Under the pieces are notes generated by a model. That model did no database searches and was not told the origin of the DNA. It worked only from the letters and a program-made list of their open reading frames with translations. From Clostridia bacterium (GTDB lineage: Bacteria; Bacillota; Clostridia; Christensenellales; CAG-138), in assembly GCA_017388175.1 (NCBI GenBank), contig JAFOTD010000009.1:1-62005 (forward strand): a stretch of 62,005 nt of DNA. The letters run 5' to 3'. A program made the position numbers and the translations under genes. This document shows, in pieces, positions 27,093-56,458 of the stretch; position 1 is the stretch's first letter, and each line of letters opens with the position of its first letter.

Positions 27093-27200
27093 ATGAGACG
27101 ACGCACAATCAAAAAAACAGGCTGGATCATCGGCATTGTGATCATGTCGATTCTGACGCTCGCCGTGCTTGCGGCGGACGTCGTGTTGATTGTGCTGTAA
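27093..27200 (+). CDS. 35-residue single-pass membrane peptide
   Basis: A small gene three bases after the glycosidase stop. GAGGAG lies exactly six bases before the ATG, an ideal ribosome binding site. The peptide has a basic start (MRRRTIKKTG) and then one continuous hydrophobic helix rich in Ile, Leu and Val to the end. The following LCP gene has its own GGAGGG directly after this stop codon. It is probably a membrane micropeptide that partners the glycosidase or LCP protein; no homologue is known to me. Confidence 0.7.
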   Translation: MRRRTIKKTGWIIGIVIMSILTLAVLAADVVLIVL

Positions 27201-27210
27201 GGAGGGCGGT

Positions 27211-28461
27211 ATGGAAGCGTCGGAAAAACCGAAAAAACCGTTCCGAAAGCTTCGGATCGCCTTTTTCGCGCTGTGCATCGTCTTTGCGCTCCTCTGTGTG
27301 CTGTGCGTCATCCTTTGTCAGACCAAAGTGCCGTTGTGCCGCGACGCGCGCCTTTTCACCAACGACAGCCGGGGTTTTAGGCTGATCTCCTGCGGCGTGC
27401 AGATCGTGAAGCGCAGCGGCGAAGCGATCGACGTCAACACGCTGCCGACGCCGGATGCGGAGCTGTTCGACGAGGCGATGCGAACGGACATGGATTATTA
27501 CGAGACCGGCGAGATCAAGAAGATCCCGATCTACGAGCAGAGAAGGATCGACAGCAGTATTTTCAGCATGGTCGTTGTGGTGCAGAACGGATCCGTTAAG
27601 GAGGAAAACGCGACGACCGACATGATCTTTATCGCGTCGTTCAGCCAACCGAGACAGAAGTTTACGGTCATTTCCGTCGCGCGGGACATGCTTGTGCCGC
27701 TTTCCGAAAGCGAATGGAAGCGCATCAATACGGCGTATGCAAACGGCGGAATCGGCATGCTGATCAACACGATCAACGATACCTTTGATCTGGACATTCA
27801 AAACTACGTGATTACCGGAACAAAGGAGCTGGCGGCGCTTGCGGACGGCGTCGAGGGCATTCCGGCAATGCTGACCGAGGCGGAAGCGGCAACGGTCAAC
27901 GCCACGTGCGGCTCGTCGCTGACTGCGGGCAAACAGCAGCTTTCCGGCGAGCAGATTGTCACGCTGCTGCTCGATCGCACGTCCGATAACAAGGGCGATC
28001 TCGGCAGAGCGGACCGGCAGGTCGAAATCGTCGAGGACGCGTTCTTGTACATGCAGGACAAGTTCGACAGCAAGTTTCTCTATCCGTTTTTCCGCACGAT
28101 CTTCAATTCCATCCTCACGAACTTCGATTTCGAAACGCTGCGCGACGTGGGCTATGAGATGGCGGTTTCGGACGAGCTGACGTTTGAAACGCTGCGTCTG
28201 CCGTTCGACGAGGCATATACCGAGCTCAACGCGGACGGCGCGTACGCGCTGCTCCCTGCGTTCGAAAAGAACCGGATCCTGCTCCGGCAGGCATTGTACG
28301 GCAAGGAAGATATTCAGCGCGAGGCGGGCAGCGAAGCGCCGCAAGACGCGTGGGTGCTGCCGGCTGTGCTCGGCGTCTTAACTTTCGGCATCGCCGCATG
28401 CATCGTCATATTCGCCGTAAAACGTCGTAAAAAGAAGAAGCAGGAAGCAAAACAAGCATAA
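27211..28461 (+). CDS. LytR-CpsA-Psr (LCP) family wall-polymer ligase
   Basis: A 416-residue protein. LCP enzymes transfer lipid-linked teichoic or capsule polymers to peptidoglycan outside the membrane. A basic N-terminus is followed by one helix (about 16-36). The LCP domain has TTDMIFIASF, VISVARDMLVPL (first arginine), RINTAYANGGIGMLINTIND and the GDLGRADRQVEIV motif that binds the pyrophosphate lipid. Unusually, a second helix (LPAVLGVLTFGIAACIVIFAV) and a lysine-rich cytoplasmic tail end the protein, so both ends lie inside. I use the ATG at 27211, with GGAGGG five bases before it. It follows the glycan cluster that would supply its substrate. Confidence 0.9.
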   Translation: MEASEKPKKPFRKLRIAFFALCIVFALLCVLCVILCQTKVPLCRDARLFTNDSRGFRLISCGVQIVKRSGEAIDVNTLPTPDAELFDEAMRTDMDYYETGEIKKIPIYEQRRIDSSIFSMVVVVQNGSVKEENATTDMIFIASFSQPRQKFTVISVARDMLVPLSESEWKRINTAYANGGIGMLINTINDTFDLDIQNYVITGTKELAALADGVEGIPAMLTEAEAATVNATCGSSLTAGKQQLSGEQIVTLLLDRTSDNKGDLGRADRQVEIVEDAFLYMQDKFDSKFLYPFFRTIFNSILTNFDFETLRDVGYEMAVSDELTFETLRLPFDEAYTELNADGAYALLPAFEKNRILLRQALYGKEDIQREAGSEAPQDAWVLPAVLGVLTFGIAACIVIFAVKRRKKKKQEAKQA

Positions 28462-28465
28462 GAAA

Positions 28466-28486
28466 AGAGCGGTATCAAACCGCTCT
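28466..28486 (+). repeat. Terminator hairpin, left copy flanking repeat element 1
   Basis: AGAGCGGT and ACCGCTCT form a hairpin after the LCP gene. Its T tract is missing because the element at 28487 begins directly at its 3' foot. The identical 21 bases recur at 28711-28731. Confidence 0.85.
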
Positions 28487-28710
28487 CAGCTTGTCAAAAA
28501 ACCTTTTGACAAGCTGAGCAGGCTGTTGGGAAGGGTGGCAGAATTCGTGTTTTCACGATGGAGCTATACTGAAGTATGCGACTGAATGAAAACACGAATA
28601 GTTTGCGACGAAATAATAAAAAGAAAGGGCATTTTTCTGCCCTTTCATCCTGCAAGTGTTCATTTGAAACATATCGCCGCAAACGGTCTGACCCCTTTTA
28701 CGACAGCCTG
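28487..28710. mobile_element. Small non-coding repeat element, copy 1 (224 bp, MITE-like)
   Basis: Boundaries are defined by comparison with the second copy at 56085-56432. The ends are imperfect inverted repeats (CAGCTTGTC at the left, CAGGCTGTC as the complement of the right). Inside are three hairpins: CAGCTTGTCAAAA with TTTTGACAAGCTG, ATTCGTGTTTTCA with TGAAAACACGAAT, and AAAGGGCA with TGCCCTTT. Short open frames cross it on both strands but have no ribosome binding site and differ between copies. It is flanked by exact 21-base direct repeats that are themselves a terminator hairpin. No transposase is encoded, so movement would be in trans. Confidence 0.85.
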
Positions 28711-28735
28711 AGAGCGGTATCAAACCGCTCTTTTA
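28711..28735 (+). terminator. Terminator hairpin, right copy flanking repeat element 1
   Basis: The same AGAGCGGT/ACCGCTCT hairpin as at 28466, here still followed by TTTT. This copy is the functional terminator for LCP transcripts that read through the element. Confidence 0.8.
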
Positions 28736-28749
28736 CGTTTATACGGGTT

Positions 28750-29589
28750 TCAAAACAACCGCAGCGCGTGCGTTTCTGCTTTGTACGCTTCAAAGCCCTC
28801 CTTGCGCGCCTGATGCTTGTCCGCCATCGGAATGCTGACGATCAAAAACATCGCGGTGTTCAGAACCGCCCCGAGCAGAAGCTGCCAGACGCCGCCGAGC
28901 GCGGCGATCGACGCGAGCGCAACGCCCCACCACATCAGTATTTCGCCCAGATAGTTCGGATGCCGCGTATGCTTCCAAAGCCCTTCACGGATGAACCCCG
29001 TGCGGTGCGTTCTACGGAAGCGGTGAAGCTGCCAGTCGGACAAGCCCTGTAAAACGGTTGCAAACAGCGAGAGCAGAATTCCTCCAAGGCACAGCGGGTT
29101 CCAAGCCGCGCCGCGCTCGATCGTGACGACGGCGGGCAGCGTGACGCAGTATACCACGAGCGTCGGAAACAGGTGAATGCCGAAAAAGTTGACGAAAGGA
29201 TAGAGCTTTCCGGTCTTTTCGCGCAGCATCGTATAGCGCCAATCCTGATGCTCGAGATCGCGGAACGTATACGCCCAGTTCGCGGTCAGCCGCACGCCCC
29301 AGATCGAAACGACAAGCAGCAGCGCCGCGCCGATCGGCGTGAGCCCGCTCCGCAGCGCAAAGCCCGAAAGGATCACGATCGGCTGTACGCTCCAGTACGG
29401 GTCGTAGACCGACGCGTTCTGAAAGATGACGCTGAACGCGAACACGAACGCGGTCGCCGCAACGTCTGCAAGCAGAAGCCGAAGCCAGTAAGCGCCATTC
29501 AGGACCGAGAACACAAAGACGCCGAACGCGATCGCAAGCAAGTAGACCGCGGCAATGATGAGAAATCCGATACCCCGTTTGTTTTTCAT
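28750..29589 (-). CDS. DUF1295 / steroid 5-alpha-reductase-like membrane protein
   Basis: A 279-residue membrane protein with about seven hydrophobic helices. The family features are DPYWSVQPI, RLTANWAY, RDLEHQDWRY and the C-terminal TRHPNYLGEILMWWG, which in relatives binds the cofactor. Family members are membrane oxidoreductases or methyltransferase-like proteins whose bacterial substrates are mostly unknown. I choose the ATG at 29589, with GGAGGGC four bases upstream, over an extended frame reading through the promoter. It is monocistronic, and its promoter is near perfect. Confidence 0.85.
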   Translation of the reverse strand: MKNKRGIGFLIIAAVYLLAIAFGVFVFSVLNGAYWLRLLLADVAATAFVFAFSVIFQNASVYDPYWSVQPIVILSGFALRSGLTPIGAALLLVVSIWGVRLTANWAYTFRDLEHQDWRYTMLREKTGKLYPFVNFFGIHLFPTLVVYCVTLPAVVTIERGAAWNPLCLGGILLSLFATVLQGLSDWQLHRFRRTHRTGFIREGLWKHTRHPNYLGEILMWWGVALASIAALGGVWQLLLGAVLNTAMFLIVSIPMADKHQARKEGFEAYKAETHALRLF

Positions 29590-29610
29590 AATGCCCTCCG
29601 AAACGCTCCT

Positions 29611-29640
29611 ATTATAGCATTGCATGGCGCATGCTGTCAA
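29611..29640 (-). promoter_or_regulatory. Strong SigA promoter of the DUF1295 gene
   Basis: On the minus strand, TTGACA and TATAAT (both full consensus) are separated by 18 bases, with TGC before the -10. Confidence 0.85.
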
Positions 29641-56062: not shown

Positions 56063-56084
56063 AAGCCTCCCTTTGGGGAGGCTT
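56063..56084 (+). repeat. Terminator hairpin, left copy flanking repeat element 2
   Basis: AAGCCTCCC and GGGGAGGCTT pair. As at copy 1, the T tract is missing because the element begins at the 3' foot of the stem. A near copy (two base differences) follows the element at 56433. Confidence 0.85.
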
Positions 56085-56432
56085 CAGCTTGTCAAAAAAC
56101 CTTTTGACAAGCTGAGCAGGCTGTTGGGAAGGGAGAGATGGCGACGCGCGGGAAGCGTGCGACGGCACCACTGAAACGAAGCGAAAGCGGAGTGATAAAG
56201 AATTCGCGTTCTTCGCGATGGAGCCATACTAAAGTATGCGACTGAGGATGGCGACGCGCGATCAAACGCGCGACGGCACCGCTGTAACGGAGCGAAGCGA
56301 AGTGGCTACGAAAACGCGGATAGTTTGCGGCGAAATAATAAAAAGAAAGGGCATTTTTCTGCCCTTTCATTCTGCAAGTGTTCATTTGAAACATATCGCC
56401 GCAAACGGTCTGACCCCTTTTACGACAGCCTG
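56085..56432. mobile_element. Small non-coding repeat element, copy 2 (348 bp)
   Basis: The first 49 bases and the last 110 bases match copy 1 (28487-28710) nearly exactly. The middle is longer because two copies of a GATGGCGACGCGCG-type block with CGACGGCACC and a GAAGCGAA-rich end have been inserted. The inner stem is kept by paired changes (ATTCGCGTT against AACGCGGAT). The 559-base gap between the DegV and symporter genes holds this element, its hairpins and a promoter, and no gene. Confidence 0.85.
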
Positions 56433-56458
56433 AAGCCTCCCTTCGGGGAGGTTTTTCG
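56433..56458 (+). terminator. Terminator hairpin, right copy flanking repeat element 2
   Basis: AAGCCTCCC and GGGGAGGTTT pair and are followed by TTTTT, so this copy has the intact terminator. Confidence 0.8.

Follow-up and report, generated by a model that had tools for sequence, protein, structure and literature searches.

A transposase-free, probably IS1182-type element of Clostridia that appears to insert at terminator hairpins and duplicate them whole

A 224-bp element behind a LytR-CpsA-Psr (LCP) gene of a Clostridia bacterium lies between two identical copies of the hairpin that terminates this gene. We interpret it as a non-autonomous, IS1182-type MITE (probability about 0.8), which a transposase acting in trans would insert by joining it to both feet of a hairpin extruded from the target, so that target structure would set the duplication. 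The DNA analysed, hereafter the window, is a stretch of 62,005 nucleotides of contig JAFOTD010000009.1 (assembly GCA_017388175.1), and its relevant features are collected in Table 1.

Table 1. Features of the window at the LCP gene end, and the second member of the repeat family
Feature	Position	Strand	Basis
LCP gene, its terminator being the target	27190..28461	+	ORF; PF03816, E 3.8e-24
Proximal (left) terminator hairpin copy, without T run	28466..28486	+	Sequence, repeat search, fold
224-bp element, non-autonomous; proposed IS1182-type MITE by ends and behaviour	28487..28710	+	Sequence, flank and end comparison
Left-end hairpin CAGCTTGTCAAAAAACCTTTTGACAAGCTG (30 bases)	28487..28516	+	Repeat search, fold
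Inner left terminal repeat CAGGCTGTTGGGAAGGG.., pairing with 28687-28710	28519..28542	+	75% complementary
First internal stem-loop arm	28543..28599	+	Repeat search; covariation
Second internal stem-loop arm	28601..28684	+	Repeat search; covariation
Internal hairpin, followed by TTTTTATTATT on the minus strand	28623..28646	-	Repeat search, fold, rows by eye
Right terminal repeat, terminating in GACAGCCTG	28687..28710	+	Sequence; matched to IS ends
Distal (right) terminator hairpin copy, followed by T run	28711..28731	+	Sequence, repeat search, fold
Convergent DUF1295 gene, on the far side of the element	28750..29640	-	PF06966, E 1.5e-42
Second family member, long form, 348 bp, after DegV gene	56085..56432	+	Window; row L024

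The flanking sequence, AGAGCGGTATCAAACCGCTCT, occurs as two identical copies of 21 bp, each with an 8-bp stem and a 5-nt loop (-9.1 and -9.2 kcal/mol as DNA), a stability that none of 200 shuffles reached. The left copy begins four bases after the LCP gene and abuts the element directly, with no T run, and the right copy retains its T run on the 3' side (CTCTTTTACG). Between them the element starts with CAGCTTGTC, ends with GACAGCCTG and contains no transposase gene. An earlier, sequence-only reading had described this arrangement, including the unequal fate of the T tract, and both the sequence and the repeat search bear it out. The same reading took the whole hairpin to be the duplicated target site; at the window copy (row L028) the duplicated unit indeed runs exactly from foot to foot, with zero extra bases on either side. 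The long form elsewhere in the window is flanked by hairpins at about 56063-56084 and at 56433-56454 that show two differences between them, and it carries two additional inserted hairpin segments (gatggcgacgcgcg...).

Other copies of the element were expected in the sequence-only reading to share these flanks, and this was examined at 64 loci, comprising 60 copies from the best matches among relatives and four from the window's own genome. Both ends are present in 35 copies and the left end is missing in 28; one locus (L112), with no right end in the match, belongs to neither group. A hairpin was counted if it started within 3 bases of the element end, and a direct repeat if it was ungapped and at least 14 bp long. 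Among the 35 complete copies, a hairpin stands at the right foot in 28 and at the left foot in 27, and a direct repeat flanks 19. When left flanks were paired with the right flanks of other copies, no such repeat was found in 1190 combinations, and random positions near the same copies showed a hairpin in 16 of 350. The flanking duplication is not chance, because the hairpin differs from locus to locus and yet the arrangement is the same, and because mispaired flanks never reproduce it. Complete copies thus bear out the expected flanks, and the contrary outcome, in which most copies lie off terminators or lack repeats, is absent among them. The expectation extends poorly to the 28 copies without a left end, in which the duplication is mostly missing (right hairpin in 10, left hairpin in 2, direct repeat in 1); these fit decay of the proximal hairpin copy and could also reflect another mode of insertion.

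Unoccupied counterparts of these sites carry one hairpin. Fifteen loci orthologous to the LCP gene end, in other species of the genus, were read through the protein, and eight of them (L281, L282, L285, L287, L288, L292, L293, L294) have a single hairpin and no element. The hairpin is weaker at L283, and L284, L286, L291 and L295 could be read neither way. At L290 (L063 in the flank comparison; G008:C9) an element lies within a duplicated hairpin of its own, alike in the stem and different in the loop; it may have inserted independently at a favoured site or have been inherited. A remnant of an element end may be present at L289. For a second copy of the element, L011, seven of ten orthologous loci (L300-L304, L307, L309) likewise have a single hairpin without an element, a divergent relative of the element is found at L308 (G005:C137), and L305 and L306 show neither hairpin nor element. 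Because hairpin sequences vary by species, these unoccupied loci are homologous places and not identical empty alleles.

The sequence-only reading proposed no mobiliser, and the evidence points to transposases of the IS1182 family. A PF13751 transposase domain was found in 8 of the 24 genomes reached through loci with the left-end hairpin. At L246 (G128:C11), a 488-aa transposase gene lies in an element with outer ends CAGAGTGTCAAAG and TTCTTTGACAGACTG and the same 37-base hairpin on either side. Positions 219-1971 of this locus form a composite, in which a MITE-like part, an end-hairpin and the IS1182 transposase gene share one duplicated terminator hairpin. Against the NCBIfam IS1182 model (NF033551, cut-off 270), L244, L245 and L246 score 442, 353 and 380 bits, and the remaining partners were assigned to the family by homology to L246. 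Ends of the form CAGNCTGTC[G/A]AAA are common to this partner subgroup and the element; comparison of the right end of the element, TTTTACGACAGCCTG, with the IS ends TTTTTCGACAGGCTG and TTCGACAGTCTG gives a match over the first ~10-15 bases, not the whole end. The partner transposases are putative movers of the ends that enclose them.

These partner elements also resemble the small element in their flanks. Thirty transposase loci were scanned for CAG-type ends; in 16 the two ends lie a plausible distance apart, and both flanks are available for 15 of these. As judged by eye, 12 of the 15 duplicate a flanking hairpin or palindrome (L246, L312, L313, L314, L315, L316, L318, L332, L338, L340, L274, L266), the palindrome of L266 being short and AT-rich, the copies at L274 slightly different and those at L312 inverted in the loop. 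At the other three (L317, L319, L263) the hairpins on the two sides differ, as they do at L320 and L323, which have variant ends. Four of the loci (L319, L332, L338, L340) hold the same IS of a single genome, and three of these four duplicate the hairpin. IS1182-like elements with other ends differ, with no flanking repeat in the six examined (L324, L325, L327, L329, L330, L331); IS1182 elements ending in GGRGCTGTTGACAAA showed no flanking hairpin repeat. In the transposase tree, a branch with support 80/99 separates the ten rows that are flanked by hairpins from the other-ended IS1182 transposases. The tree leaves out L266, L244, L323 and L264, for which the filter yielded no ORF; L121 and L122 were placed in its 'none' group by their ends alone, and the ungrouped L243, L336 and L339 are wrong-frame translations whose very long branches are meaningless.

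Relatives of the L246 transposase occur in 12 of 396 genomes searched in the window's order and in 21 of 295 in the order of L246; among viral contigs, three pattern matches yielded no confirmed relative. The partners nearest the window are L263 and L274, from the same family, and L266, from the same order, and all three have transposases in pieces. In the genome of the window, a draft of 111 contigs that is about 75% complete, no IS1182-type transposase was found (PF05598, 0 matches; L246 protein, 0 matches). The enzyme that would act in trans may lie in the missing part of this genome or have been lost. Within the genus, a DUF772 search gave matches in 4 of 41 genomes, with ends unlike those of the element; IS1182-type transposases with other ends are present (L121, L122), and no partner transposase with matching ends was found.

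Known relatives of these transposases suggest a different outcome at the target, namely replacement of the hairpin. IS1272 and TnSha1 of staphylococci have IS1182-family transposases and insert at the hairpins of inverted-repeat targets without a common sequence, several of them terminators. According to the passages of the two reports on which we draw, the hairpin is replaced in the case of IS1272 (Wan et al. 2017, PMC5678879) and partly deleted in that of TnSha1 (Furi et al. 2016, PMC4923244), and no duplication is seen with either. If the present element behaved likewise, its flanking hairpins would be its own or those of neighbours, and the IS copies with unlike hairpins on their two sides (L317, L319, L263) could be read in this way. 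The window copy contradicts this, as the hairpin is present twice in identical form and none has been removed; most complete elements lie between two hairpins that are peculiar to the locus and the same, or nearly the same, on both sides, and the orthologous sites carry one. Replacement is therefore very unlikely here, and duplication of the whole hairpin sets the element apart from IS1272 and TnSha1.

A duplicating outcome has been drawn before. In the portion of Wan et al. 2017 (PMC5678879) considered here, it appears as hypothetical pathway b, with attack at the 5' feet, and is assigned to no element. Palindrome-targeting IS1182 members are attributed by Furi et al. (PMC4923244), in the passage used here, to Siguier et al. 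2015. As far as the relevant statements in each go, a 2025 paper describes IS1182-related transposases as acting with or without target duplication, on sequence or structure (PMC12056078), and a survey finds IS1182 over-represented between convergent genes (PMC9208149). Both statements are in keeping with the mechanism proposed here.

The element itself is highly structured. Each arm of its left-end hairpin, CAGCTTGTCAAAAAACCTTTTGACAAGCTG, resembles a terminal repeat of the IS1182 partners, so that a whole hairpin of two end-like arms stands where the partner IS elements have simple left ends. The core (28519-28710, 192 bases) consists of imperfect inverted ends and two internal arms. Both strands of the element form much more stable folds than shuffled sequences do (z -10.4 and -11.3), and 18 of 35 predicted pairs in the core show paired changes. 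The internal hairpin on the minus strand resembles a terminator and, because a T-rich stretch follows it on that strand, may stop transcripts arriving from the right.

Such folding, together with the position of the element, brings to mind group IIC introns, which insert behind terminator stems, and an intron-like or other RNA-based element with this habit could account for both. A search of 28300-28900 against Rfam gave no match up to E 1, and thus no intron sequence, and neither domain V nor intron ends were recognised by eye. To our knowledge, introns leave no target duplication. The covariation fits RNA and DNA structure alike, being also expected of inverted repeats in DNA, and the ends and behaviour of the element match IS1182. 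We consider an RNA-based element highly improbable.

The length of the duplication bears on how the IS1182-type MITE would measure its target. The retrieved sequences were scanned for left ends that have a hairpin before them and its match on the far side of the element; of the 78 pairs obtained, nine were dropped by eye as unrelated hairpins (L012, L148, L152, L171, L175, L183, L184, L209, L241). The remaining 69, used for lengths and divergence only, give no frequency of duplication because they were selected for matching arms; only the 64-locus comparison does. In the 30 insertions with identical copies, repeats of 17-38 bp accompany hairpin spans of 16-36 (r 0.945), and the repeat is at most 5 bases longer and at most 3 bases shorter than the hairpin. 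Since the search for the repeat started from the hairpin, what this match tells us is that the repeat ends where the hairpin ends.

Ordinary DDE elements make fixed duplications, and a fixed stagger at a preferred sequence near terminators, coinciding with the hairpin by accident, would be the usual expectation. Two IS1182 members, ISCaa15 (PMC3196728) and ISPse1 (PMC3281130), are indeed listed with 4-bp duplications. The duplications seen here vary with the hairpin over 17 to 38 bp, at targets without an obvious common sequence. Because they end at the hairpin feet and follow hairpin length, a fixed stagger is practically excluded.

The insertions occupy unrelated hairpins at unrelated gene ends. 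Of 64 with enough flank, 62 adjoin a gene end directly and 37 lie between convergent genes. The proposal of the sequence-only reading that the element enters between stem and T tract holds for the window copy and does not extend to a rule on element direction. Of the 69 insertions, 15 have a T run on the right only and 23 on the left only, where it reads as an A run; 17 have one on both sides and 14 on neither. The direction is thus mixed, and an orientation rule with the T run always on one side was rejected. The constant feature across insertions is entry at the foot of a hairpin.

The repeat family is concentrated in the genus of the window. The window's own genome holds 55 matching pieces. 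Five are full copies that are nearly identical, two are half copies at the ends of contigs, and the rest are either longer forms carrying inserted hairpins or older, diverged copies. The element was matched in 23 of 61 related genomes, distributed as 22 of 23 in the genus, 1 of 14 in the rest of the family and 0 of 24 in the rest of the order; a wider search of the family found it in 32 of 103 genomes and 2 of 26 genera. The pattern of the left-end hairpin reaches further, occurring in at least 115 stretches of other Clostridia genomes and in none of the viral contigs, and the titles among the 80 left-hairpin matches listed read, without exception, Clostridia, Clostridiales, Oscillospiraceae or similar.

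Two larger elements have the same ends, L123 (G010:C31, about 502-2290) and L124 (G020:C4). They were rejected as autonomous copies, as they contain other small genes and no transposase. Their cargo comprises a 242-aa lipoprotein-like protein and a Cro/C1-type HTH protein (PF13443), and L123 is placed between identical hairpins. A search with the L123 protein returned full-length relatives with 41-48% identity in five genomes, along with many short, low-scoring matches.

On another contig of the window's genome, the right flank of the window is present behind a different copy of the element (L002, G000:C21:26456-27429), whose left hairpin matches the right hairpin of L006 on C25 (G000:C25); C21 has probably been misjoined at this repeat when the draft was assembled. 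Such a misjoin and the 111-contig draft might suggest that the duplications stem from faulty assembly or from recombination between repeats. This is the least credible explanation of all, since the hairpins vary by locus and genome and yet match across each element.

The proposed classification as a MITE draws on several properties. Like the bacterial MITEs described in the part of PMC10969869 drawn on here, the element is short, free of a transposase and strongly folded, with inverted ends and many intergenic copies; it is repeated in its own genome and across the genus. Its ends match those of autonomous elements over the first ~10-15 bases, and it shares their type of duplication. Unlike those MITEs, it shows a long duplication set by the structure of the target, and its left end is a complete two-arm hairpin. 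We read it as one of an IS1182-type MITE family with structure-set duplication of whole terminators. A search of the open-licence literature turned up no description of IS1182 elements, or of MITEs of this kind, that duplicate a whole terminator. ISfinder lists IS1182 duplications of up to about 60 bp; if this holds, long duplications are already on record for the family.

We propose that a transposase of the IS1182 subgroup with ends CAGNCTGTC[G/A]AAA moves the element in trans. The enzyme would recognise DNA structure and not sequence, its target being the palindrome of an intrinsic terminator, which probably extrudes to form a hairpin or cruciform. Strand transfer to both feet of the hairpin, one per strand, would flank the element with single-stranded gaps that each span the entire palindrome, and filling of these gaps by repair would duplicate it. 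The predicted product is hairpin, element, hairpin, with a duplication as long as the hairpin itself. At the LCP gene, a hairpin with its own T run remains distal to the gene, termination would probably be unharmed, as the sequence-only reading had held, and the element would be appended to the 3' end of the mRNA.

With less assurance, we think it rather probable that the same holds for a whole IS1182 clade. Its members would measure their target by structure, cutting at both feet of a DNA hairpin or cruciform, with the target dictating the length of the duplication. Duplication of whole terminators would offer many sites that spare genes, keep a T-run hairpin behind the gene and place a structured RNA on the 3' end of its mRNA, and small transposase-free elements, some carrying genes, would use this route across several Clostridia groups. 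DDE transposases are usually described by a fixed target duplication, and a group that follows the hairpin could serve as a natural test of cruciform or hairpin recognition. It would fill the duplication branch that has only been drawn as a model for IS1272, and would illustrate how a mobile element spreads through gene ends while leaving genes unbroken. Such transposases are also candidate natural enzymes for insertion at sites behind genes and, if transcribed, the element would provide host mRNAs with a new 3' end.

The two hairpin copies appear to diverge over time. In 39 of the 69 pairs they are no longer identical, and differences are denser in loops (50/308) than in stems (38/1471), a contrast that is partly built in because the arms were defined by pairing. 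Loops diverge more although at most one copy per direction should serve as a terminator. Pairs that differ number 6 of 18 at a sibling identity of at least 0.97, as against 8 of 12, 13 of 20 and 12 of 19 in three lower bands. Because pairs with near-identical siblings mostly agree, most differences look later than insertion, and the idea that the hairpin is copied with errors when the element inserts was not retained as a main claim. At L312, L232 and L189 the loops of the two copies are reverse complementary (AAGATT/AATCTT, ATC/GAT and TAT/ATA, respectively), with stems that are the same or nearly so.
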